A DNA stretch of 46,128 nucleotides, from contig JAFZDQ010000129.1 of assembly GCA_017561085.1 (NCBI GenBank), positions 1 to 46,128 of the forward strand, read 5' to 3'. Each line of letters begins with the position of its first letter. Position 1 is the first letter of the stretch. This document shows, piece by piece, positions 12,588-25,186 of the stretch. Source of the DNA: Lachnospiraceae bacterium (lineage in GTDB: Bacteria; Bacillota; Clostridia; Lachnospirales; Lachnospiraceae). The notes under the pieces were generated by a model, which searched no databases, was not told the DNA's origin, and saw only the letters and a list, made by a program, of their open reading frames with translations. A program made the position numbers and the translations under genes.

Positions 12588-13613
12588 ATGGAAAAAAAGA
12601 ACATTGACTGGGCAAATCTCGGATTTGGCTATATCAAAACAGATTATCGTTATGTATCTAACTATAAAAACGGTGCATGGGATGAAGGCGTTATCACAGA
12701 AGATGATAAAGTAGTTATCAGTGAATGTGCCGGTGTACTGCAGTATGCACAGACCGTATTTGAAGGAATGAAGGCTTATACCACTACTGACGGACGTACC
12801 GTTGTATTCCGTCCTGACTTAAATGCCAAGAGAATGGCAGAGAGTGCAGCACGTCTTGAAATGCCCGTATTCCCGGAAGACAGATTTTTAGACGCAGTAA
12901 AGCAGGTTGTTAAGGCAAATGAAGCATATGTGCCTCCTTTCGGAAGCGGCGCAACCCTTTATCTTCGTCCTTATATGTTTGGTAGCAACCCGGTAATCGG
13001 TGTTAAGCCTGCGGATGAATATCAGTTCCGTATTTTTGCTACACCGGTAGGACCTTACTTCAAAGGCGGCGTAAAGCCCCTGACCATCCGTGTCAGCGAT
13101 TTTGACCGTGCGGCACCGAACGGAACAGGACACATCAAAGCAGGTCTTAACTACGCAATGAGCTTACATGCAATTGTAGATGCACATAACCAGGGTTATG
13201 ATGAAAATATGTATCTTGATGCAGCAACCAGAACCTATGTTGAAGAAACAGGCGGAGCGAACTTCCTGTTCGTAACTAAGGATGGCAAGGTGGTAACTCC
13301 TAAGTCAAACAGCATCCTTCCTTCCATTACCAGACGTTCCTTAATCCAGGTTGCACAGGAATACTTAGGCTTAGAAGCAGAAGAGAGAGAAATTCCTTTA
13401 GAAGAAGTAAAGGATATGGCAGAATGCGGACTTTGCGGTACAGCTGCTGTTATCTCTCCTGTTGGTAAGATTGTAGATCATGGTAAAGAAATCTGCCTGC
13501 CCAGCGGCATGACAGAGATGGGACCGATTACCAAGAAACTGTATGATACCTTGACAGGTATTCAGATGGGTACTATCAAGGCACCTGAAGGATGGGTTGT
13601 TGAGATTAAATAA
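12588..13613 (+). CDS. ilvE: Branched-chain amino acid aminotransferase
   Basis: PLP enzyme of fold type IV interconverting Val/Leu/Ile with their 2-oxo acids; 341 residues, the longer branch of the family. The PLP Lys is K184 in GTGHIKAGLNYA. Other signatures are FEGMKAY, RPDLNAKRM, RPYMFG, VEETGGANFLF and CGTAAVISPVG. A strong ribosome binding site (GAGGGAG) is present. It stands alone between its own promoter (12492-12520) and terminator (13649-13683), with AT-rich operator-like sequence in front, consistent with nutrient control. Confidence 0.95.
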   Translation: MEKKNIDWANLGFGYIKTDYRYVSNYKNGAWDEGVITEDDKVVISECAGVLQYAQTVFEGMKAYTTTDGRTVVFRPDLNAKRMAESAARLEMPVFPEDRFLDAVKQVVKANEAYVPPFGSGATLYLRPYMFGSNPVIGVKPADEYQFRIFATPVGPYFKGGVKPLTIRVSDFDRAAPNGTGHIKAGLNYAMSLHAIVDAHNQGYDENMYLDAATRTYVEETGGANFLFVTKDGKVVTPKSNSILPSITRRSLIQVAQEYLGLEAEEREIPLEEVKDMAECGLCGTAAVISPVGKIVDHGKEICLPSGMTEMGPITKKLYDTLTGIQMGTIKAPEGWVVEIK

Positions 13614-13648: not shown

Positions 13649-13683
13649 AAACGGCACTTCTGTAAAGGGAAGTGCCGTTTTTT
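13649..13683 (+). terminator. Intrinsic terminator of ilvE
   Basis: A perfect 12-bp stem, AAACGGCACTTC (13649-13660) with GAAGTGCCGTTT (13669-13680) around an 8-base loop, ends in TTTTTT. It separates ilvE from the sensor-kinase genes that follow. Confidence 0.93.
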
Positions 13684-13723: not shown

Positions 13724-14647
13724 ATGAACTGGTTAATGACCGTATGTGCAGAAAGTATATATATCATAGAAAATTTTATGATTGTACTGGCTTTCGTGAT
13801 TTTAATGAAGTATAAAGGGAAGCATCTGAAAATCAGTGTGATAGGTCAGGTGCTGTTTATCTATTTGTTTCAGAAAATATCTACACCTCTCAGTATCGCA
13901 TTAACGGGAGAAAACTCCTTAAGTGTAATTGCGAATATTTTGGTAGAAGTAATAATTTCTATTATTTTTTACAAAGGTACCTTTTGGCGAAGAACCTTTG
14001 CTATTATCAGTTATTTACTACCGGCACTGTTGTCAGAGGCACTTGTTTGGCCGCTGATACACAAAATCATTATGCGTATAGAGGGTATTGATGCAACTTA
14101 TCAGATGATTTATGAGGTTGTGGAATACCGGAATCTGGCCACGATTTTGTGCGGACAGATTATCCTTATTTTGTGGGTAATGATGCTGCTCCTTTGGAGA
14201 GTAACCATCGATAATAAGTGGATAAAAGAATATCTTTTGTTCATGATAATTCCGGTTTATCAGTTGGTTATCTTTTTCATCTATTACAATTCCTGCGAGA
14301 AAATTAATGTTCCAAGTATCGTGACCGGCTGGTTTTTATATATCTTTGGGATCGGGATTGATGTAGCGATTTTATATTTGATTTCCGGTATGTTAAAAAG
14401 GGTGAGACTGGAAAAAGAGTTAAGCGAATTGTACCAAAAGCGAAAAGAAGAATTAGAATATTATGTACAGGTAAACGGTCATATGGAGAATGTCCGCGAA
14501 TTACGTCATGAATTTGCGAATCAGTTGCAGGTTATCTATGGTCTGATGGAGGAGAAGGATACAGATAAGGTACGAATGATGCTGGATGCAATTCATGAAA
14601 ATATGGAACATGTTTTTGCTGATGTAAGCGATGAGGTGAAGGTATGA
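13724..14647 (+). CDS. Truncated AgrC-like sensor: membrane domain plus phospho-accepting His, no ATPase domain
   Basis: 307 residues. Residues ~1-235 form a polytopic membrane domain of about six or seven hydrophobic segments. A helical linker and the dimerisation/phosphotransfer helix follow, with H262 in RELRHEFANQLQVIYGLM, matching the RH(D/E)xxNxL motif of AgrC/ComD-type (HPK10) kinases. The protein stops about 45 residues later, before any N, G or F box. The stop overlaps the start of the next gene (ATGA, 14644-14647), so the two are translationally coupled. The next product is homologous along its whole membrane domain (compare YLLFMIIPVYQLVIFFIYY with YLLYIIVPFYQLILILIYY). GGGGGAG is the ribosome binding site. 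Probably the phospho-acceptor half of a heteromeric kinase. Confidence 0.8.
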   Translation: MNWLMTVCAESIYIIENFMIVLAFVILMKYKGKHLKISVIGQVLFIYLFQKISTPLSIALTGENSLSVIANILVEVIISIIFYKGTFWRRTFAIISYLLPALLSEALVWPLIHKIIMRIEGIDATYQMIYEVVEYRNLATILCGQIILILWVMMLLLWRVTIDNKWIKEYLLFMIIPVYQLVIFFIYYNSCEKINVPSIVTGWFLYIFGIGIDVAILYLISGMLKRVRLEKELSELYQKRKEELEYYVQVNGHMENVRELRHEFANQLQVIYGLMEEKDTDKVRMMLDAIHENMEHVFADVSDEVKV

Positions 14648-15987
14648 GAATAGAAATTCTTTTAAAAATTTGTCAGGCGGGCATGTTTTTGGTGCAATGG
14701 GTTATTATGGCAGTAACCTCGCTAAACCTGTTAAAAACGAAAATAGAAAGTAAACGAAAGACTTTTGTATTTTATATTATTTTAGGAATGGGTTCTGCGG
14801 CAATCAGCAGAGTTATATTGTCGGTGACCAAAAGTGTCCTTCTGAATGTAGTATTATGTGCCGGAATTGTAATCATGGTTCATGTTTTGCTGTTTGCCGA
14901 TTCTCTAAAAAAGAGAATCGGATTAGGGGCAATAGAGATGATGATATCTTTAATCGGAGAATCAGGAACAGCCTATTTGCTTTTAACTACGGCCCATAGC
15001 AGAGGAATAGATATGCTTTACGGATACGACAGTATGTATGCACATACAGAGTATGTGGTATTGTCCAGTATTTATTCCACATTGATATTCTTTGTACTCT
15101 TCATGATTCTCTTGGTTTTGTGGAAGGGAATTGTGGACCGGTTCTGGATGAAGGCTTATTTACTGTATATAATTGTACCTTTTTATCAATTGATACTGAT
15201 TTTGATTTATTACGCGACATGTAAAAATCTGGAAGAAATCGAGTTGACAATTGGTGTTATTTTGGTTGTATTCAGTCTGATTATTGATTTTAGCCTGATT
15301 TATCTCGTAGGAGGAATGCTGAAAAAGGAACAGGTAGAGAAAGAACTGACAGCCTTGTATGCCCAGCGTCAGACAGAGCAGCAATATTATGAAATGGCTG
15401 TAAATAATATGACGGAGTTAAAAGAAATCAAGCAGAATTACACCGGGCAACTGCAGAACATATATGATCTTTTGGAAAACGGAGAAAATAATTCAGAAAT
15501 AAAGGATTTATTGGATCGTTCGTCACAAAAACTTCAGGCAACCGCGCTGAAAAGATATTGCGAGAATGCGATTGTGAATGCGATTTTGACGATTAAGAGT
15601 GCTGCTGCTTTAGAAAAGGGGATTGATGTGGATTGTGCCTGCGGCGTACCGGAATCGGTTGGAATTGAAGCGATTGACTTGTGTAGTCTATTTGCCAATC
15701 TTTTGGATAATGCAATAGAAGCCTGCGAAAAAAGCGAGGATACCATGCAGAAAGCGATTTCCATTCATGCAGGGGTCCGTGGCGGCTACCTTACCATTAA
15801 GACTGAGAATACCTATTCCCAGCCGGTAGTCAGGGAAAAGGGTAAGTTCCTAACCAGCAAATCGGATAGCGCAAATCACGGGTATGGCTTGAAGCTGATT
15901 GATGATATTATCCGAAAATACGACGGTAATCTAAAAATAGATGCGGAAGCGGGAATTTTTAAGGTGGTTGCGTCACTAAAAGTATAA
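14644..15987 (+). CDS. AgrC-like sensor kinase with intact ATPase domain but the phospho-accepting His replaced
   Basis: 447 residues: polytopic membrane domain (~1-235), linker, a degenerate phosphotransfer helix and a complete HATPase domain. At the position of the neighbour's H262 there is Q264 (KEIKQNYTGQLQNIYDLL); the following acid and Asn are also lost. The ATP-binding domain looks functional: CENAIVNAIL and ALEKGIDVDC, N box SLFANLLDNAIEAC (N352, N356), FLTSKSD, and G box HGYGLKLIDD (412 onward). It therefore cannot phosphorylate its own His but could phosphorylate the partner encoded just upstream. No peptide-signal or AgrB-like gene is adjacent, so the stimulus is unknown. Confidence 0.82.
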   Translation: MRIEILLKICQAGMFLVQWVIMAVTSLNLLKTKIESKRKTFVFYIILGMGSAAISRVILSVTKSVLLNVVLCAGIVIMVHVLLFADSLKKRIGLGAIEMMISLIGESGTAYLLLTTAHSRGIDMLYGYDSMYAHTEYVVLSSIYSTLIFFVLFMILLVLWKGIVDRFWMKAYLLYIIVPFYQLILILIYYATCKNLEEIELTIGVILVVFSLIIDFSLIYLVGGMLKKEQVEKELTALYAQRQTEQQYYEMAVNNMTELKEIKQNYTGQLQNIYDLLENGENNSEIKDLLDRSSQKLQATALKRYCENAIVNAILTIKSAAALEKGIDVDCACGVPESVGIEAIDLCSLFANLLDNAIEACEKSEDTMQKAISIHAGVRGGYLTIKTENTYSQPVVREKGKFLTSKSDSANHGYGLKLIDDIIRKYDGNLKIDAEAGIFKVVASLKV

Positions 15988-16107: not shown

Positions 16108-16818
16108 ATGACCAGGCTTGGAATTTGTGATGACGATGCTAAAGTTCTTGATATTTTACATAATATGATTGACAGTCAGTATGGTGAACAAATACAGGTA
16201 CAGACTTGGAAGTCGCCCCAGGAGCTTTTGTTCTGGTGCGAAGAAAATGAGTGTGTTCCCCTGGATATTATTATCATTGATATTGTGTTGCAGCGCGAAA
16301 GCGGCATTGAACTGGCAAAGAAGTTGCAGAAGCTGTCCCGCAGGGTAAAGATTATTTTTATCACGGGTCATATCGAGTTCGCCGCAGATATCTTTCAGAT
16401 AGAGCCTGTTTATCTTTTGAAAAAGCCGGTGAGCGTTTTGAAGCTGGTAGAATCAATTGACAGAGCTATCGAAAAGATTACGATGGAAGAAAGCCAGGTG
16501 ATTACCCTGCAGTCCAAGGGCATGGTTTACAGGGTCAATATTAATTATGTCTCCCACGTAGAATCACAGGAGAGGAAACTGCTGATTTATCAGAATGAAG
16601 GCGTAATCAGCGTGTACATGAAAATGGACGGGCTGGAAGAAAAACTGGGCGAAAATTTTTTAAGATGCCATCATAGCTATCTGGTAAACATGGCGTATAT
16701 CAAGAATTTTTCTTCGCAGGAAATCGAACTGATTGACGGAACCCAGATTCCTGTCAGCAGGCCTAAGAGCAAGTCGGCGAAGAATCGGTTTTTGGCGTAT
16801 CTGGGGGAGAAGATTTAG
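16108..16818 (+). CDS. LytTR-family response regulator (AgrA/ComE-like)
   Basis: 236 residues. The receiver domain (1-120) has the acidic pocket CDDDAK, phosphorylated Asp58 in IIIIDIVL, and the conserved Lys in YLLKKPV. The LytTR DNA-binding domain (about 138-234) has YVSHVESQERKLLIY, a central FLRCHHSYLVNMAYIKNF and the terminal IPVSRPKSKSAKNRF. This is the usual partner of AgrC-type kinases. It lies 120 bases after the second sensor gene, with its own probable promoter and a terminator immediately after. LytTR proteins bind pairs of ~9-bp direct repeats; two such pairs lie just downstream in front of the next two genes. Confidence 0.9.
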   Translation: MTRLGICDDDAKVLDILHNMIDSQYGEQIQVQTWKSPQELLFWCEENECVPLDIIIIDIVLQRESGIELAKKLQKLSRRVKIIFITGHIEFAADIFQIEPVYLLKKPVSVLKLVESIDRAIEKITMEESQVITLQSKGMVYRVNINYVSHVESQERKLLIYQNEGVISVYMKMDGLEEKLGENFLRCHHSYLVNMAYIKNFSSQEIELIDGTQIPVSRPKSKSAKNRFLAYLGEKI

Positions 16819-16870: not shown

Positions 16871-16914
16871 GTCCGTGTTTGTGCGTGAGGGGGCGTGCAG
16901 ATGCGGGCTTTTTT
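16871..16914 (+). terminator. Terminator of the split-kinase/response-regulator genes
   Basis: GTCCGTGTTTGTGCG (16871-16885) pairs with CGTGCAGATGCGGGC (16894-16908) over all 15 positions, counting several G.U wobbles, around an 8-base loop, and is followed by TTTTTT. The many wobbles make it easy to miss in DNA. It lies upstream of the operator at 16926 and so marks the end of the regulatory transcript. Confidence 0.75.
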
Positions 16915-16925
16915 ATTTGGAATAA

Positions 16926-16955
16926 CAATTTTTGACAAGAAAGAGGCAGTTTTTG
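16926..16955 (+). promoter_or_regulatory. LytTR-type operator A, upstream of the acyltransferase gene
   Basis: CAATTTTTG (16926-16934) and CAGTTTTTG (16947-16955) are direct repeats separated by 12 bp, a 21-bp period that puts both on the same face of the helix. This is the geometry of AgrA/ComE-type sites. A TGCATGAT sequence about 15 bases further on could be the -10. The block 16925-16966 is 34/42 identical to operator B at 17934-17975. Confidence 0.7.
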
Positions 16956-17047
16956 CAAATCAGAACAAGTGCATGATGTTAGGTGTTAGCATGTTATTTA
17001 GCTATAGAAAAGTATTTAAATTGAGCTGGAAATCTGTGGGGGTATAT

Positions 17048-17929
17048 ATGATATTAACAGAAAAAGATACGTGGGCTAATCGTTATATAAGGATGAAAAT
17101 CAAACAGTATAAAAAGAAAAAAGCTGAACTACTTTTTTCTGACAAACCAATAAGAGGTGTTACTGTCAGAAAGCGAATTCATCCCATATTAATCAAAGTA
17201 TTGCAAATTAAGAGTATATTATCCGGGTTGACCTATGAATTTGTCAGTAAAGAAAATAATATGCCAAAGGAACAGCCAGTTATTTATGCAATCACACATA
17301 TTGGAAAGTATGATTATGAAATGCTGGTAGAGGCTTGCGATATTTTTGCATATCCTTTTGCCGGGGATTGGGAACTAATGTATGCGACGGTAGATGACTT
17401 TTTCCTGCGTGCAAATGGAGTACTATGGGTAGATACCGGTGATAAAGAAGATAGACAAAATAGTTTCCGATTTATGAAAAAAGCATTAAAGCAGGGAATA
17501 TCTATGTTGATTTATCCGGAAGGCATCTGGAATTTAACAGAAAGTTTACCAGTTATGAAGATATTTCCAGGGGCCGTACAAGCAGCAAAAGAATGTAATG
17601 TCCCAATAATACCCATAGCAATAGAGCAAAAAGGGAAGCACTTTTTGATTAATGTGGGAGAAGCGTTGGATGTTTCAGAAATGGAAGAAAAAGAGGCTGT
17701 GGAGGTTTTGCGGGATAATTTGGCAACACTTAAGTGGAAAATTTGGGAAACGTTTCCAATGGAAAGAAGAAAGGATATTCCGCGAGGATATCATGATGTA
17801 TTTGTACAAGAACGTCTTGCTGAATGTGCCGGATTTACCAAGGAACTGGTAGAAGGAAGAATGTTCAGAGATAAGACAGATAGAGAAATTTTGGCTATTG
17901 AAGAAGATTTAAAGAAAATCCATGCTTAA
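17048..17929 (+). CDS. PlsC-like lysophospholipid acyltransferase
   Basis: Glycerolipid acyltransferase-fold protein, 294 residues from this start. The H-x4-D catalytic motif is AITHIGKYDYEM; it is followed by NGVLWVDTG, MLIYPEGIWNL (the FPEGTR-type acyl-acceptor motif) and VPIIPIAIEQKG. It probably acylates a lysophospholipid or another hydroxyl at the inner membrane face. The frame is open further upstream (to GTG 16895), but that stretch contains a terminator arm and operator A, so I chose ATG 17048, which has GGGGG 6 bases upstream. The gene is AT-rich compared with the core genes. Its control region is nearly a copy of the one before the giant surface-protein gene, suggesting joint control by the LytTR regulator. 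Confidence 0.8.
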   Translation: MILTEKDTWANRYIRMKIKQYKKKKAELLFSDKPIRGVTVRKRIHPILIKVLQIKSILSGLTYEFVSKENNMPKEQPVIYAITHIGKYDYEMLVEACDIFAYPFAGDWELMYATVDDFFLRANGVLWVDTGDKEDRQNSFRFMKKALKQGISMLIYPEGIWNLTESLPVMKIFPGAVQAAKECNVPIIPIAIEQKGKHFLINVGEALDVSEMEEKEAVEVLRDNLATLKWKIWETFPMERRKDIPRGYHDVFVQERLAECAGFTKELVEGRMFRDKTDREILAIEEDLKKIHA

Positions 17930-17964: not shown

Positions 17965-18064
17965 CAGGTTTGAACATGGATGCATATACGAGTGGTAAAA
18001 TGGTACTAATTCTTGCAGAAAAAGGAATGAAAGCAAGAGAGATTATGTATTGGAGGGAAGTATA

Positions 18065-21000
18065 ATGAGAAAACGATTATTGAGTGGTTTTCTGGCATTT
18101 TTATTAGTGGTGCAAATGTTCACACCACAGGTTTATGCTGCAGAAGTATCACCTCAACTTACGCAGGAAATTCAGAGTGAAACTCCGAGTCCTGAAGTAG
18201 AAGCAGAGGAAGATACTGATGAAACCACACTGGCAGAAGAAGTAGAAAGTACACAGGCACCGGAAGAAGAGGTGATTCCTGAGGCGACAGAAGAACCTGA
18301 AGCGGAGGCAACGCCGGAGGCTACAACTATGCCTGAGGAAGAGGAAACACCCGAGGTGACACCTACTCCTGAAGGGGAAAATGCGCCTGAGGCAGAAGAA
18401 ACTCCGGAGGTGGAAGCAACACCTGATGTAGAAGAGGTATTGGAAACGGAAACTTCTAATGATTTTTTAGAGAATGATGATAACCTGATAGAAATGGCTG
18501 AAGAACCAATTAAAGAAAATGAAAAGAGTTTAGAACAGTCATCACAACTAATTACCGTAAATTATACTCCAGAGTTAATTGCACAAGTGGGACCACAGGG
18601 CAAAGATATGTGTATGGCATATACATTAGCATATTGTAGAACTATAATTGATGGAATTGTACATAAGGGGCGAGAATATTGGCAGGATAATGTAGGTGGT
18701 ATGTATAGCTGGGCTGATTATACAAAAACCGGTACTAATGATAAGCAAAGTTTTCTGAAAATGATAGTTAATGAAATAAATCAAGGAAAACCAGTAGGAA
18801 TGTGGGTTACAAAGCATTATCGTGCAAATCAGGCATGGAATGCGAATGGTGATCATTGGGTAGCTGTAATTGGATATCGAAGTACTGCAGATATTAACAA
18901 TTTAAAGACAAGTGATTTTTATATAATTGATCCAGGAAATTGTGGATATGACTATTTATCAGATAATGAAGATTCATTTAATTTTACGACGTACAATTTA
19001 CTATTGTACAAATATCAAGTAAAGGATGAACCCCAAGTATCCAAGCTTACACTTACAGCAAACAAACCAGAAGGTAATTTGCCCAGAGGATCTAGCTTTA
19101 CTGTTACCGGTACAGCGCAATCTAATGTAAAATTAAAAAAAATAGAAGTATCAATAACCGAGATTGATGCAAATGGAAATCCTTCAGGTAAAATGTTACC
19201 TCCTGCAAATATAGATTTAGATTGCTACAATTATAGTTGGGGAGCACACTCAGAAATTGATGAAAAGATGACCTTCAAGGAACTGGGAGAAGGAACTTAT
19301 TTATACAAAGTCAAAGTAACCGACGCGGCAGGTAAAACCAAAACGATTACGAGTAAATTTACAATAGTTCCTAAGGCTAATGAAAATAAAGTCATTGCGC
19401 CTACATTGATATTACATACCGATAAAAACACCTTAGATGAAACCAGTGCAACCAGAACAGCATTGTTAACTAATCCCGGTAATTTAAGAGTTACTGAGGC
19501 AGGTATGATTCTTTATGATGAAAGTCGCAATGCAATTGCCAGATGTTCGGAAAAGTTAAATGATTTCCGAGGACAGATATGGATATATTATGCGACCAAT
19601 TCCAATACCAATGTGAATTTGAACATAAACCTTACGCCCGGAACCAAGTATTATTATGATATTTATGCTTATGTAAATAATGAAAAATATGTAGTAGAGG
19701 GTGAATTTACCACCAAGGGCAGTTCTAAACCGCAAACTCCTGTGTTAAATGTTGACCAGGTAGAGTATGCAGCAGGAGATGTCGCAACAATTACATGGAA
19801 CAGTGTAGACCATGTAAAGGATGGATATGAAGTAACTCTTTTTGCTAAGGACGGAAGCTATACCAAAACCGTAGATACTAAGCTTACCAATGCCAGCTTT
19901 GTATTACCTACAGGCGGAGAATATGATGTTTCCATCATTGCCAAAGGATATAGCAATAGTGATACGGGATACCTCGACAAAACATTAAAAGCATATGATG
20001 ATTGTAAGGTTACCTTTGTGGAAGAAGCGGAAGACGGTACAATTACTGTTTTAAAAGAGGAAGTGGTAAAATATAAGAGAACTGCAACTCCTCCTTCTGC
20101 ACCTACAAGAACCGGTTGGATATTCCAGGGATGGGATAATTCCTTTACGACAGTTACTAAGGATGTTACAGTAAAAGCTATTTTTGTTAGAAATACATTC
20201 AAAGTAGTGTTTTTTGATATTGACGGAAGCGTCTTGAAGCAGGAAAGAGTTCCTTATGAAGGTTACTTAGAACCGCCTGCAGATCCGATTCCTGAACCGG
20301 GATTTGTATTTGTAGGTTGGGATAGCGATAAATATAAATATGTAACAGAAAATACAGAAATTCATGCAAGTTATGTTTATGAAAATATAGATCTTCCGTT
20401 ACAGTTAAATGTAGATAGTTGTGAGTTTGATAGTGATGCAACTGGATATGCAGTTTACTATGATGTTTCCAATTATGATAAAGGAGTAACGCAAGGGCGC
20501 GCAATAGTATCCTTGATGACTTCTGATGGTAGATTGGTTTATACTACGGAATCCAATGCCTTTTCCTTAAAAGCTTCTCAAAAGAAAAATAATGTAGAAG
20601 TGTTTGTTCCGTATACAGGTGAAGCTGCTTATGCGGAAGTAGTTATTGTGGCAAGCTTTAATAACAGTATTCCGCTTTCTGAAAAGAAAACGATTGATGT
20701 AATCAGAACTTGGAGTGGCTGGAAGACAACTGCACCTCCTGCGACAGCAACAGAAATTGAGAGTCGTGTTGAATATCGTTATCAGGACAAAGATACTTAT
20801 GTTAGTTCTTCACCTAATCTTAGTGGTTGGCAATTGGAGAGAACAGAAGGTTATTGGGGGGACTATGGAGCATGGAGTGGTTGGTCCCGTAATCAGTATT
20901 GGGCATCTGATAGCAGACAGGTACAAAGTCGTACAGTTACAGACCAGGCAGCATATAATCTTCAGCACTATTATTTCTGGAAATATCATAAATCAGGTGT

Positions 21001-24000
21001 AGGCTGGATGTATTCTTATGCAAACCGTTCCGGAGGAGCAGGAGTATCTGGTGTAGAGTATCATGAGACATGGATAAATACAGCGGGTGATAATAAGACT
21101 ATGGTACATGATGGATATGATGATGGTTATGACAGATATATCTGTGTGCCTTGGCAAGTTTATGAAGTAGAGTTTTGGTATAGAGGAACAGGGGATAGGT
21201 ATGTCCCTGCAGTAACCCATACCGAATGGCAATGTCGTGACAGACAGTATTTGTATAGATATCATTTCTACAAATGGAGTAATTGGTCTGAATGGTCCAC
21301 CACACCATATACTGCTAGTGCAACTAGAAGGGTAGAGAAGCAAACCGTATACAGATATAAGACAGATGCTGCTCCAGTGGATGAGTGGCATGGAGAATTA
21401 CGAACCGTTAGCGGTAAAGTAAGTGAAACTTTAGCCGGTAAACAGGCATTATTGGTTGTATATAAGAACGAAGAACCTTCTGACTTTAATAACGAATATT
21501 TAGGTCAGACTACTATTGGTGAAGATGGTTCCTATAGTTTTACCTTCTTTACAAGAGAAGTGCCTTCCGTTGAGACAGGTGATTTTACAGTTAAGTTAGG
21601 TATTGAAGGCGCAAGTGAGTTGCTTTACTTAAGTACAATTGAAGCTCCTAAGCCGGAATATAGTGTGAAGTTTGTAGACTGGGACGGAACCATTTTGAGT
21701 GAACAGACTGTAACAGAAGGAAATTCAGCTGTTGCACCGACAGAACCTGTAAGAGCAGGACATCGCTTTATTGGTTGGAGTACCGGACTTACAAATGTAC
21801 ATGATGAACTTTCAATTATGGCAATGTATGAAAAGGAACAGTGTACGGTTGTCTTTGTAGACTGGAGCCAGGATACTTTTAAGACAGAGCAGTATGATGT
21901 GGGTGCCGATATTATTTATCCTGTTTGGAAAGAAGTAGAAGGCTACGATTTCATGGGCTGGTTTGACGAAGCAGGAAACGTTGTAACCAAAGCTGAAAAG
22001 AATCTGGTTCTCACTGCACATTATGAAGTGAAAGAGTATAACGTAGTATTCTACAATCAGAGTGGTGAGCCTATCAGTGAACAGGTAGTGCGCTACGGAC
22101 AGTCTGCGTTACCTCCTGAAGCTCCTGCGATAGAGGGACAAAGCTTTAGTAGCTGGAGTACCTACGATTATTCTTCCGTAAAGAGTGATTTACATATTTA
22201 TCCGAACTACAGATATTATGAAACGACCCAAAATCCCAGTGCGGATATTAAGTCAAAGACATTAGAAGAGCCGACGGCTATAACACTGAGTTGTCCCGAT
22301 AAAGATGCAACAATTTACTATACTTTGGATGGAACAAGACTGGATATGTTTGCTACAGAATATACAGGTCCGATTACCATTGATAAGAACGTAGTATTAC
22401 AGTTCTATGCAAGATCAGAAAACAAGAACGACAGTGAAATTATATCAGAAGCATATCTGATGATGAATGCGGAAGATGATTCGGGAGCAGTGGTAATTAA
22501 GAAGGATAAGCTGAATTTATTATTGGGAGAGGAAGCCCCTCAGATTACGTATTTCCTTTACCATGAAAATCAGAATATCGGAGTTGAGTTCCATGCACTT
22601 AACGACTCTATCGTTTCTGTAGATGAAGAAGGACAGTTGACGGTTAATAACGTTGGTGAAACTCAGGTATTTGTTGTAACAAAGGATTATCGTTATGCGG
22701 ATTATTGTGATATTACAGTAACCTCCAACGAAGTAGAAATTGAAACCTTAGATATTTCCAAGAAGAATGTTGACCTGTTTGTGGGAGAAGAAGCTGATTT
22801 GGCTACAAGAATTACACCTGAAGATGCAACTTATCAAGATGTAATTTGGAACTCCGCAGATACAGATATTGTAAGGATTAATCAGGATGGACATCTGGTT
22901 GCGGAAGGTGTAGGTGGTGCATATATCACGGCGTATTCTCATGCAGGTAAAAACATTGCATATTGTTATGTAAATGTAGAAGACACAACTCTGAATTTAA
23001 GCGAGCAGGAAATTGTAATTGCAATGGGACAGAAATACCAGTTGAATGCAAGAATACCAGGAGCTGAACAGACACTGACTTGGAAATCAGATGATAAGAG
23101 TGTGGCAACCGTAAGCGCGGAAGGTCTTGTAACAGGTGTAATCCCCGGAATGGCAACCATTCTTGTGACTGCTGAAAATGGTGAGTTCAGAACCTGTACC
23201 GTAAGGGTTACCAGAGGTCAGATAGCAGCAGAACCTCCACAGGCACCGCAGGTAGAAGATGTTACCGACACAAAGATTGTATTGGTAAAACAGGAGGGCT
23301 GCGAATATAGTTTAGATGCCAAGGTATGGCAGGACAGTAATGAATTTTTAGGTTTGACACAGGATACGGAGTATGTTGCATACAGTCGAGTAAAAGCAAC
23401 AGAAGAAACGCTGGCAAGTTCTGCAAGTAAGGGAACAGTAATTAGAACAGAAGAAACGAAGATTGTAATTGCTGAAATTCCTGAACAAATTTATACCGGC
23501 AAAAAAGTTAAACCTACTGTAACGGTAACTTATAAAGGGGAAGAGTTAGTAGCCGGAAAGGATTATACAGTAGCGTATACTAACAATACCAAGGCTTCCG
23601 CAACGGCTCCTAAAGTGACTGTAACAGGTAAGAATTTCTATACAGGTTCAGTAAGTAAGAAGTTTGTAATCAATAAGAAAAATATTGCAGAGAGTGACAT
23701 TATCTGTAATGAATTAATTACTGCACCAAGTAATAAAAAGCAGCAATTAAAGCCTACGCTAAAATATGGAACCATTACATTGACAGAAGGAAAAGACTAT
23801 AAGCTTAGTTATCCGGATTTAGATGATGGAGCCTACAAAAATGCTGGCGAATGGAGCATTACGATTACCGGTATTGGTAGTTTTGAAGGTTCACGTACAG
23901 TGACTATGCAAATTACTGAACTGAAAAAGATAAGTAAAACGAAGATAAGTATTCCTAAGGCAGTGACGTATGATGGTGAAATGCATAAGCCTGAAGTGGG

Positions 24001-25186
24001 TGTTTCCTACAATAATAAAGCATTGGTTAAAGGAACTGATTATGAAATATCCTATCCTTCAGAAGAAAATGGTGCTTATGTAATGCCGGGTACTTATTTA
24101 ATTAAGATTACTGGTATTGGTGATTATACCGGAAGCAAGACAGTTAATTATAAAATTAATGGTATTAAGATTGACGAAGCAGCCGTTAGCGGAATTGTAA
24201 GTGAAGTAGAATATATTGGGGAAGAAATAACCCAAGATGAAATGGATGTTAGTTTAGAAAGTATAGGTTCATTAGTTATAGATAGAGATTACGAAGTGGC
24301 CTATGCAAAAAATACCAATGTAGGAAAAGCAACCATTACAATTACCGGTATCAATACCTATACAGGAACCATCAAAAAGTCATTTAAAATTATTCCTTAT
24401 AATTTAAAGAATGATGAAAGTGGTTTGGTAACATTTGTAAGTGAACCCGAGACAGTGGCATTTACCAAAGGCGGTTGTAAGCCGGTATACGAAATTTTGT
24501 TTGATGGTAAATTACTGGTAAGTGGTAAAGATTATACCATTAAGTACAAGAATAATACGTCTGTAAATGACGGAACCAATAAGAAGACAATACCTACAGC
24601 AACGATTACCGGTAAAGGTAATTATTCAGGTACATTGACACGGACATTTGTAATTGAAGAACAGGATTTAGAAAACCTGAATATTACAGTAGCAGATGTA
24701 GCGTATAAGAAAAATGCGTCTTATTATAAGGTGGTACCGACTTTATATGATCTTGATGGCAAGAAATTAGTAGCAGGAAAAGACTATGATAAAAAGTATG
24801 TCTATTCCTATGCCGATGGAAGTAGTATTGGTAAGAATGAAGTGCCTGAAGCCGGCTCGGAATTACAGGTAACCGTAAAAGGTAAAGGCAGTTATGCGGG
24901 TGTGATTTCTGCGACATATCGTGTGGGCGAGAAACTGATTAATAAGGCTCAAATCAGTAAAATAAAGAAGAATTACACGGGAGACGAGATTACATTAAGT
25001 GCAAGTGAAATTGTCGTTAAAATTGGTAAAACAAGACTAGTAGCCGGAAGGGATTATGTAATTGAAGAAGATACTTATGCTAAAAATACAAATCCCGGAA
25101 CAGCGACTGTGATGATTAGAGGCGTAGGTGATTATGCCGGAACCGTAAAAGTAAAATATACGATTCAAAAGAAACGCTTTTTCTAG
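18065..25186 (+). CDS. Giant secreted multidomain protein with C39-like peptidase, InlB-like, BIG2 and C-terminal repeats
   Basis: 2,373 residues, starting at ATG 18065 behind GGAGGGA (an upstream TTG lies in that site). In order: signal peptide (1-27, ending VYAAE); Glu/Pro/Thr-rich stalk (~30-150); papain-like C39-family domain (~165-320) with C183 in GKDMCMAY, H264 in GDHWVAVIGY and D289 in IIDPGN; Ig-like domains (~325-640); InlB/Flg_new-type repeats (~647-772 and ~1199-1382, five in all, each with a GW/SW core such as GWIFQGWD); a Trp/Tyr-rich segment (~879-1109); a chitobiase-like CHB_HEX_C domain (~1392-1472); three BIG2-like domains (~1476-1717); an Fn3-like stretch; and seven ~80-residue repeats (~1799-2371) with cores like LVAGKDYTV and ITGxGxYTG. 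It has no LPxTG, SLH or other anchor at the C terminus. Likely a surface-associated or released adhesin/protease; substrate unknown. AT-rich; preceded by LytTR-type operator B. Confidence 0.85.
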   Translation: MRKRLLSGFLAFLLVVQMFTPQVYAAEVSPQLTQEIQSETPSPEVEAEEDTDETTLAEEVESTQAPEEEVIPEATEEPEAEATPEATTMPEEEETPEVTPTPEGENAPEAEETPEVEATPDVEEVLETETSNDFLENDDNLIEMAEEPIKENEKSLEQSSQLITVNYTPELIAQVGPQGKDMCMAYTLAYCRTIIDGIVHKGREYWQDNVGGMYSWADYTKTGTNDKQSFLKMIVNEINQGKPVGMWVTKHYRANQAWNANGDHWVAVIGYRSTADINNLKTSDFYIIDPGNCGYDYLSDNEDSFNFTTYNLLLYKYQVKDEPQVSKLTLTANKPEGNLPRGSSFTVTGTAQSNVKLKKIEVSITEIDANGNPSGKMLPPANIDLDCYNYSWGAHSEIDEKMTFKELGEGTYLYKVKVTDAAGKTKTITSKFTIVPKANENKVIAPTLILHTDKNTLDETSATRTALLTNPGNLRVTEAGMILYDESRNAIARCSEKLNDFRGQIWIYYATNSNTNVNLNINLTPGTKYYYDIYAYVNNEKYVVEGEFTTKGSSKPQTPVLNVDQVEYAAGDVATITWNSVDHVKDGYEVTLFAKDGSYTKTVDTKLTNASFVLPTGGEYDVSIIAKGYSNSDTGYLDKTLKAYDDCKVTFVEEAEDGTITVLKEEVVKYKRTATPPSAPTRTGWIFQGWDNSFTTVTKDVTVKAIFVRNTFKVVFFDIDGSVLKQERVPYEGYLEPPADPIPEPGFVFVGWDSDKYKYVTENTEIHASYVYENIDLPLQLNVDSCEFDSDATGYAVYYDVSNYDKGVTQGRAIVSLMTSDGRLVYTTESNAFSLKASQKKNNVEVFVPYTGEAAYAEVVIVASFNNSIPLSEKKTIDVIRTWSGWKTTAPPATATEIESRVEYRYQDKDTYVSSSPNLSGWQLERTEGYWGDYGAWSGWSRNQYWASDSRQVQSRTVTDQAAYNLQHYYFWKYHKSGVGWMYSYANRSGGAGVSGVEYHETWINTAGDNKTMVHDGYDDGYDRYICVPWQVYEVEFWYRGTGDRYVPAVTHTEWQCRDRQYLYRYHFYKWSNWSEWSTTPYTASATRRVEKQTVYRYKTDAAPVDEWHGELRTVSGKVSETLAGKQALLVVYKNEEPSDFNNEYLGQTTIGEDGSYSFTFFTREVPSVETGDFTVKLGIEGASELLYLSTIEAPKPEYSVKFVDWDGTILSEQTVTEGNSAVAPTEPVRAGHRFIGWSTGLTNVHDELSIMAMYEKEQCTVVFVDWSQDTFKTEQYDVGADIIYPVWKEVEGYDFMGWFDEAGNVVTKAEKNLVLTAHYEVKEYNVVFYNQSGEPISEQVVRYGQSALPPEAPAIEGQSFSSWSTYDYSSVKSDLHIYPNYRYYETTQNPSADIKSKTLEEPTAITLSCPDKDATIYYTLDGTRLDMFATEYTGPITIDKNVVLQFYARSENKNDSEIISEAYLMMNAEDDSGAVVIKKDKLNLLLGEEAPQITYFLYHENQNIGVEFHALNDSIVSVDEEGQLTVNNVGETQVFVVTKDYRYADYCDITVTSNEVEIETLDISKKNVDLFVGEEADLATRITPEDATYQDVIWNSADTDIVRINQDGHLVAEGVGGAYITAYSHAGKNIAYCYVNVEDTTLNLSEQEIVIAMGQKYQLNARIPGAEQTLTWKSDDKSVATVSAEGLVTGVIPGMATILVTAENGEFRTCTVRVTRGQIAAEPPQAPQVEDVTDTKIVLVKQEGCEYSLDAKVWQDSNEFLGLTQDTEYVAYSRVKATEETLASSASKGTVIRTEETKIVIAEIPEQIYTGKKVKPTVTVTYKGEELVAGKDYTVAYTNNTKASATAPKVTVTGKNFYTGSVSKKFVINKKNIAESDIICNELITAPSNKKQQLKPTLKYGTITLTEGKDYKLSYPDLDDGAYKNAGEWSITITGIGSFEGSRTVTMQITELKKISKTKISIPKAVTYDGEMHKPEVGVSYNNKALVKGTDYEISYPSEENGAYVMPGTYLIKITGIGDYTGSKTVNYKINGIKIDEAAVSGIVSEVEYIGEEITQDEMDVSLESIGSLVIDRDYEVAYAKNTNVGKATITITGINTYTGTIKKSFKIIPYNLKNDESGLVTFVSEPETVAFTKGGCKPVYEILFDGKLLVSGKDYTIKYKNNTSVNDGTNKKTIPTATITGKGNYSGTLTRTFVIEEQDLENLNITVADVAYKKNASYYKVVPTLYDLDGKKLVAGKDYDKKYVYSYADGSSIGKNEVPEAGSELQVTVKGKGSYAGVISATYRVGEKLINKAQISKIKKNYTGDEITLSASEIVVKIGKTRLVAGRDYVIEEDTYAKNTNPGTATVMIRGVGDYAGTVKVKYTIQKKRFF

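Follow-up and report, generated by a model that had tools for sequence, protein, structure and literature searches.

A putative AgrC-type histidine kinase of a Lachnospiraceae bacterium with phospho-acceptor histidine and ATPase domain on two overlapping gene products

Sensor histidine kinases are usually read as homodimers, and two adjoining kinase genes, one product of which has kept the phospho-acceptor histidine and the other the ATPase domain, raise the question of whether they encode two broken enzymes or one enzyme in two parts. Such a pair, here called P1 and P2, lies in a 46,128-nucleotide stretch of DNA from a Lachnospiraceae bacterium (assembly GCA_017561085.1, contig JAFZDQ010000129.1, positions 1 to 46,128 of the forward strand), which was analysed as a whole and is referred to as the window. 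A sequence-only reading of the window had proposed that the two genes encode homologous membrane sensors with reciprocal defects, which through duplication and complementary loss became an obligate heteromeric kinase. Our analysis points the same way: with a probability of roughly 0.8, P1 and P2 together form one obligate heteromeric AgrC-type (HPK10) histidine kinase, each contributing a subunit, and the pair would have arisen by tandem duplication and complementary loss. The observations behind this reading are the domain content and motif state of the pair, the recurrence of the same division elsewhere, and purifying selection on the histidine-bearing, ATPase-less (His-only) paralogues of other loci.

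P1 (13724..14647, + strand; 307 amino acids, aa) consists of a membrane sensor, a coil and a dimerization and histidine phosphotransfer (DHp) hairpin, in which H262 lies within RELRHEFANQLQ as part of an HExxN motif; the codon of H262 (CAT) was read at 14507..14509 (+), and the protein ends 45 residues past it. SPOB_a alone passes its Pfam cut-off in P1 (34.1 bits, cut-off 28.1), with no HATPase match. P2 (14644..15987, +; 447 aa) also has a membrane sensor and a DHp, where KEIKQNYTGQLQ carries Q264 (CAG, read at 15433..15435, +) at the site aligned to H262, followed by an intact HATPase_c_5 domain (residues 341-441; 79.3 bits, cut-off 22; HATPase_c 27.0 bits, cut-off 26.4) with intact N and G boxes. 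The proteins align with 34% identity over 178 aa (E 4e-36), the sites of H262 and Q264 coinciding, and a simple hydropathy count gives 7 hydrophobic segments for P1 and 6 for P2. By their open reading frame coordinates, the start of P2 and the stop of P1 share the bases ATGA at 14644..14647 (+). In the three frames read over 14601-14900 there is no ATPase remnant 3' of P1, and the N terminus of P2, directly after the end of P1, is a membrane segment of its own. The frames with their positions and lengths, the overlap, and the reciprocal loss of ATPase domain and histidine had all been described in this way from the sequence, and are borne out. A frameshift or sequencing error at this place was considered and rejected, as the sequence continues from P1 through the ATGA overlap into an N terminus that belongs to P2.

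The fold predicted for P1 agrees with this domain content. An AlphaFold2 model from an 18-row alignment (mean predicted local distance difference test score 82, predicted template modelling score 0.64) has helices within residues 2-190 and places H262 on a long helix (196-276); a hairpin helix (280-299) comes next, and the model shows no other domain. A profile built from P2 together with 23 relatives finds the AgrC kinase structure 6e52 (E 7.2e-19), with its histidine column falling on the DHp histidine of AgrC, and a profile of the His-only proteins likewise finds an AgrC structure first (E 1.1e-5). In the window genome (G000), 10 of the 11 HATPase_c_5 matches were read; five of these have a profile-recognised DHp, and the histidine is absent from P2 only.

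A gene for a LytTR response regulator of 236 aa (16108..16818, +; Response_reg 58.3 bits, LytTR 67.9 bits) stands beside the pair, and its position makes it the presumed phosphate acceptor. We infer the pairing of the subunits, the transfer in trans, the partnership with this regulator and the response to a signal, and picture them as follows. P1 and P2 would be membrane-bound via their multi-helix sensors and would pair through their DHp helices; signal binding would lead P2's ATPase domain to phosphorylate H262 of P1 in trans, and phosphorylated P1 would hand the phosphate to the regulator. The HExxN of P1 would serve dephosphorylation too, HE/DxxN/T being named as a phosphatase motif in an excerpt of PMC3591291, and the transfer and removal of the regulator's phosphate could both rest with P1, as with CheA3. 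A P1:P1 dimer would have no kinase and a P2:P2 dimer no acceptor, and both would be silent as kinases. AgrC, which is an HPK10 kinase, autophosphorylates in trans according to an excerpt of PMC10482373, and this is the mode that such a division needs.

The division is not confined to the window. Alignment-based searches with the split proteins, an ATPase-side scan of the genome_contigs collection and a check on one exception brought the total to 12 loci, drawn from 10 genomes with G labels and two named records. They hold 13 AgrC-type ATPase proteins without the phospho-acceptor histidine (His-less) and 17 histidine-bearing partners, of which 16 end after the DHp and one has a degenerate ATPase domain. 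A histidine-bearing partner with no ATPase domain, or in one case a degenerate one, adjoins every one of the 13 His-less proteins (beside being taken as on the same strand and less than 1500 bases away), and the histidine site is occupied by Q in six, by N in three, and by R, F, E and D in one each. ATPase matches below 35 bits, frames under 150 aa, duplicates, and partner frames cut by the end of a locus (L031 and L074 among them) were left out of the counts; the list of histidine-bearing, ATPase-less proteins, 26 rows with some duplicates, was cleared of the fragments L195, L196 and L217 and supplemented with the degenerate kinase of locus L269. The DHp profile missed the His-less protein L257, and all ATPase frames without a DHp match were then listed, giving three rows, of which two were cut by the locus end (one of them L224, re-read as L238) and the third was L257. 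No single frameshifted full-length kinase was found in the related genomes checked for one; 11 other loci show the same division.

The association was also seen in a sample gathered from the ATPase side, that is, the best 80 of 492 confirmed stretches fetched by ATPase motifs from genome_contigs. Among its 83 ATPase frames, a His-only neighbour stands beside 3/3 His-less proteins vs 0/80 His-bearing ones (Fisher 1.1e-5), or beside 2/2 vs 0/80 without L051, which is the G111 locus and was in the query; some of these loci are near a contig end, where a neighbour could be missed. A larger count of 188 unique ATPase frames with a readable site, in loci mostly sought with split-protein queries and collected before L238 and L269 were added, comprises 176 with the histidine and no His-only neighbour, one with the histidine and such a neighbour (L134), and 11 His-less frames, all with one.

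The arrangement of the genes varies from locus to locus. The P1 search of 299 genomes of the family gave matches at E 1e-10 or better in five genomes, the window genome included. In L020 (G111) a regulator is followed by a His-only protein of 292 aa, a Q-type ATPase protein of 439 aa and a second His-only protein of 292 aa, and in L021 (G241) by a His-only protein of 148 aa and two Q-type ATPase proteins (frames of 459 and 447 aa). L022 (G150) has a regulator, a His-only protein of 165 aa and then a frame (L022:4339-5631) where a Q-type DHp and ATPase domain come after the N terminus of a flagellin (Pfam Flagellin_N, 143 bits), through either recombination or an assembly join. Two His-only proteins accompany the Q-type ATPase protein of L131 (G250; 386 aa), and Asn-type ATPase proteins of 293 and 430 aa are found with His-only proteins of 289 and 259 aa in L132 (G183) and L161 (G068), respectively. 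In L133 (G246; L133:2321-7386), four tandem His-only receptor genes, whose DHp parts are more alike than their sensors, precede one ATPase gene of Arg type. The histidine site of the ATPase protein reads Phe in L065 (Blautia sp. MSJ-9), Glu in L097 (Olsenella uli An820, Actinomycetota) and Asp in L238 (G295), where Pfam recognises no domain and the ATPase frame appears interrupted ahead of the G box. The twelfth locus, L269 (G426; L269:5850-9251), was located while L135, a lone His-only protein of the same genome, was being checked (18 HATPase_c_5 matches in the genome, 11 read as loci). L257, one of its two kinases, combines Asn at the histidine site with an intact ATPase domain; after it come AgrB (72.1 bits), a 60-aa frame and the other kinase, which keeps its histidine, reads NLLDYALELA at the N box, has no G box and scores 19.7 bits for HATPase_c_5 (cut-off 22). 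Judged by these motifs, L269 is a reciprocal pair produced by loss of residues, not of a whole domain, inside an agr-like locus, and its peptide signal may be identifiable.

Residues around the site, substitution patterns and sensors bear on whether the halves are functional. In 14 aligned His-only proteins, which were chosen for having the histidine, an acidic residue follows it in 14/14 and Asn stands at +4 in 13/14; among the 13 His-less proteins the Asn at +4 is kept in 2, the N box in 13 and the G box in 12. The His-only paralogues of other loci are under purifying selection. Nonsynonymous (dN) and synonymous (dS) divergence by the Nei-Gojobori method is 0.18 and 0.64 for the L020 pair (0.08 and 0.67 over the last 90 codons), and dN/dS is 0.24 to 0.40 for the six pairs of L133, with 0.13 to 0.30 over the last 90 codons, below the rest of the gene in each pair. 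The L208 pair (dN 0.29, dS 1.65) runs opposite to this trend, its last 90 codons being less constrained than the rest (0.27 vs 0.12), and in the L131 pair dS is saturated. By the simple hydrophobic segment count, the His-only side is the reduced one in L021 (2; partner 6) and L022 (3), and the ATPase side in L132 (2), L065 (2) and L097 (3), whose His-only partners have 7, 7 and 6. Either subunit's sensor may therefore be reduced, and the signal has to pass between subunits. A His-less protein with a small sensor, beside an ATPase-less protein with sensor and histidine, would by its domains have little to do except in a complex.

Several points weigh against a heteromeric kinase. No close orthologue of the P1/P2 pair was found in the other 36 genomes of the genus (22 of all 37 being at least 90% complete with at most 5% contamination), where the matches, in three other genomes, are complete kinases (frames of 417-421 aa, E 1.4e-8 to 1.2e-7), and selection on P1 and P2 themselves is consequently not measurable. 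Most loci were found with queries from such proteins, so that counts outside the ATPase-side sample lean towards pairs, and that sample holds only three His-less cases. Tandem AgrC-type kinases with all copies intact also exist, as in L023 (G124), with five ordinary His-bearing kinases in a row, and L137, with two; duplication alone therefore does not produce the split. Lastly, the sequence-only reading had asked whether His-only and ATPase-only forms always co-occur, and this stood in one direction only: all 13 His-less proteins have a partner of His-only type, but four of the 21 histidine-bearing, ATPase-less proteins, in three loci (one in L134, one in L135, two in L208), have no His-less neighbour, the other 17 adjoining one. 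The L134 copy adjoins an intact kinase; L135 and both L208 proteins have no kinase beside them. In G749, the genome of L208, all nine HATPase_c_5 matches were read, and the three with a recognisable DHp, short frames of 188-222 aa, keep the histidine. L208 itself (L208:5531-8086) has its two His-only proteins in tandem, next to a LytTR-like regulator in two overlapping frames.

Could P2 do without the histidine of P1? We regard it as improbable that P2 is a DivL-like pseudokinase, steering other proteins without phosphate transfer, with P1 as a separate receptor fragment or decoy. DivL is a precedent for a His-less protein that acts without kinase activity, and it is like P2 in that the phospho-acceptor histidine is replaced; in an excerpt of PMC4211667 it is described as having Tyr at the site, binding ATP weakly and lacking autonomous autokinase activity even with Y550H. 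Against this reading, the ATP-binding motifs of P2 are intact by sequence and kept in its kin, and a protein that supplies the missing histidine adjoins all 13 His-less proteins.

Spo0B, a soluble phosphorelay DHp protein with a degenerate ATPase-like domain and no working ATPase, suggests a different role, namely that P1 serves as a phosphotransferase or phosphatase for other cellular kinases while P2 acts as modulator. P1 is like Spo0B in having a DHp hairpin without a working ATPase domain and in matching SPOB_a; behind AgrC, the His-only profile also gives weak hits to Spo0B structures (E 0.014 to 0.023), and His-only proteins without an adjoining kinase do exist (L135, L208). Unlike Spo0B, however, P1 sits in the membrane, has a full sensor and lacks a C-terminal domain, its gene overlaps that of an ATPase protein, and the other four AgrC-type kinases read in the window genome keep their own histidine, all of which leaves such a role quite unlikely. 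That the pair is a decaying duplicate or a sequencing or assembly error is very unlikely indeed: such events occur in the family, as in the interrupted-looking ATPase frame of L238 and what looks like one kinase in two overlapping frames in L195, but both window genes are open and joined by the ATGA overlap, no remnant of the missing part is left, and 11 other loci show the division again, five proteins of one well-supported clade sharing Q as the residue at the site.

If P1 and P2 are the halves of one heteromeric kinase, how did such halves come about? In a tree of DHp and ATPase parts, the five Q-type proteins that make up this clade (Shimodaira-Hasegawa-like approximate likelihood ratio test 98) are those of the window, G111 and G150 and the two of G241, and Q is therefore an old feature there. 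With 156 kinases included, at least five changes are needed on the same tree to account for the His-less state, two of them forced by well-supported branches, and at least seven on a tree of the ATPase domain alone, one of them forced; L238 and L269 are outside both trees. A third tree of 130 rows, built from the last membrane part and the DHp and with long branches that make some placements unsure, has same-locus partners mutually nearest in L132 and L161, and the four His-only neighbours of L133 nearest to the His-less protein; the partner is not nearest in L065, L097 and L131, and the row nearest to P1 is the L022 His-only protein (1.94), just ahead of P2 (1.97). In L134 (G373; L134:6463-8661), an intact AgrC-type kinase stands ahead of an ATPase-less copy. 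The row closest to this copy is the intact kinase itself (distance 0.93), and the locus may represent a half-way stage of a split. The proposal of duplication followed by complementary loss fits these placements in part of the loci, and local tandem duplication with complementary loss has, judging from the trees, probably occurred more than once.

The split arrangement is rare and patchy. The G111 pair has no match in the other 10 genomes of its genus (5/11 at least 90% complete with at most 5% contamination), the genus of G241 has no other genome present, and a genome_contigs search with P2 alone gave no match. In 80 family genomes, all 25 frames shorter than 340 aa among the matches listed were examined; two are His-only (those of the window genome and G068), the remaining 23 carry histidine and ATPase (15 of them 219-246 aa long), as do 17/17 full-length control frames. 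At the level of the order (96 genomes), 21 of 33 short frames were read, the other 12 measuring 197-253 aa, and the window's alone is His-only, L195 and L196 aside: the 19 newly read frames contain no split pair, 17 of them being complete and the others L196, a 73-aa fragment, and L195 (G487; L195:3248-4365), where a 253-aa His-bearing frame overlaps a 125-aa ATPase frame in what looks like one kinase in two frames. A class-wide search of 391 genomes, limited to 10 scored candidates per genome, gave matches in seven, and G749 with its two genes is the sole source of His-only genes not already known. The viral_contigs collection yielded nine relatives (seven His-bearing kinases, one cut before the site, and L217, with the histidine in an 81-aa frame without ATPase), the plasmids 11 records with partial kinase matches, and the phages two weak matches to P1. 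A different layout, not counted as a split pair, places a membrane protein with a degenerate DHp in one locus with a complete kinase: in L146 (G028; L146:1995-4057), a 442-aa protein with Lys at the site and an ATPase match of 20.9 bits, with a kinase of 245 aa, and in L136 (G036; L136:6346-9146), a 408-aa protein with no histidine and no ATPase match, with one of 243 aa.

Taken more broadly, the evidence leans towards a repeated evolution of obligate heteromeric receptor kinases by tandem duplication and complementary loss, both among the AgrC-type systems of Bacillota and, on one or more occasions, in Actinomycetota. If so, the receptors would be combinatorial: a single ATPase subunit would serve several histidine-donor sensors (four to one in L133, two to one in L020 and L131), or one donor several ATPase sensors (one to two in L021), and the split would extend to an agr-like AgrB locus (L269). 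Having histidine and ATPase on separate chains would fix the direction of phosphoryl transfer as trans and make two receptors readable as one gate; such a natural heterodimer would be a natural test of cis vs trans transfer, as well as a repeated case of duplication with complementary loss. Theory for split bifunctional kinases, in an excerpt of PMC3591291, holds that switch-like responses could result. There is also a warning for annotation, in that a split pair is easily mistaken for a broken kinase and a hypothetical protein.

The surroundings of the pair offer some further observations. An inverted repeat at 13649..13680, upstream of P1 and after the gene at 12588-13613, is terminator-like on the - strand in a scan that matches a consensus only, and a T run follows it on the + strand as well. 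A promoter scan of the window returned 16 sites vs 16.0 expected and so carries no information. Downstream of the regulator and of an acyltransferase gene (16895-17929), a secreted-looking protein of 2378 aa (18050-25186) with Peptidase_C39_2 (24.1 bits, cut-off 24), Flg_new repeats and Big_2 domains is a possible target of the P1/P2 system. The window genome has a single AgrB match, on another contig (G000:C118:12210-24503; L005, L218, L249, L252), where it adjoins a His-bearing AgrC-type kinase, with another such kinase about 11 kb away on the same contig.

Among known systems, AgrC is the closest model for the pair, with its multi-helix membrane sensor, DHp and GHKL ATPase domain of the HATPase_c_5 kind, and a LytTR regulator is found beside the pair as well. 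The likeness ends where AgrC, one polypeptide with its own histidine, is divided here into two proteins, and where the agr quorum-sensing system has AgrB, for which the window locus gave no match (no search was aimed at agrD). Mixed AgrC dimers were reportedly built in the laboratory by George Cisar et al. in 2009, in which a His-dead and an ATPase-dead subunit complement each other in one dimer; unlike these artificial mutants, the defects in the window are natural and lie in two genes. The sequence-only reading knew of no described AgrC-type system with this division, and a literature search found none either, most subscription papers being outside its reach, so that this is not proof of absence. 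Split kinases are already known for CheA: excerpts of PMC3591291 report that neither CheA3 nor CheA4 of Rhodobacter sphaeroides autophosphorylates alone and that the mixture does, and that 1556 of 42417 HisKA proteins in SMART have no HATPase domain, and an excerpt of PMC7656254 describes Hik36/Hik43 of Synechocystis as a split kinase. As in these, histidine and ATPase are on separate proteins in the window. Unlike these CheA-type proteins, in which whole domains are missing, P1 and P2 are membrane receptors of another family, with no CheA domain in Pfam, and the ATPase subunit keeps its DHp, in which the histidine, and mostly the Asn at +4 too, has been replaced. By its domains, the window pair would be an AgrC-type form of a split kinase.

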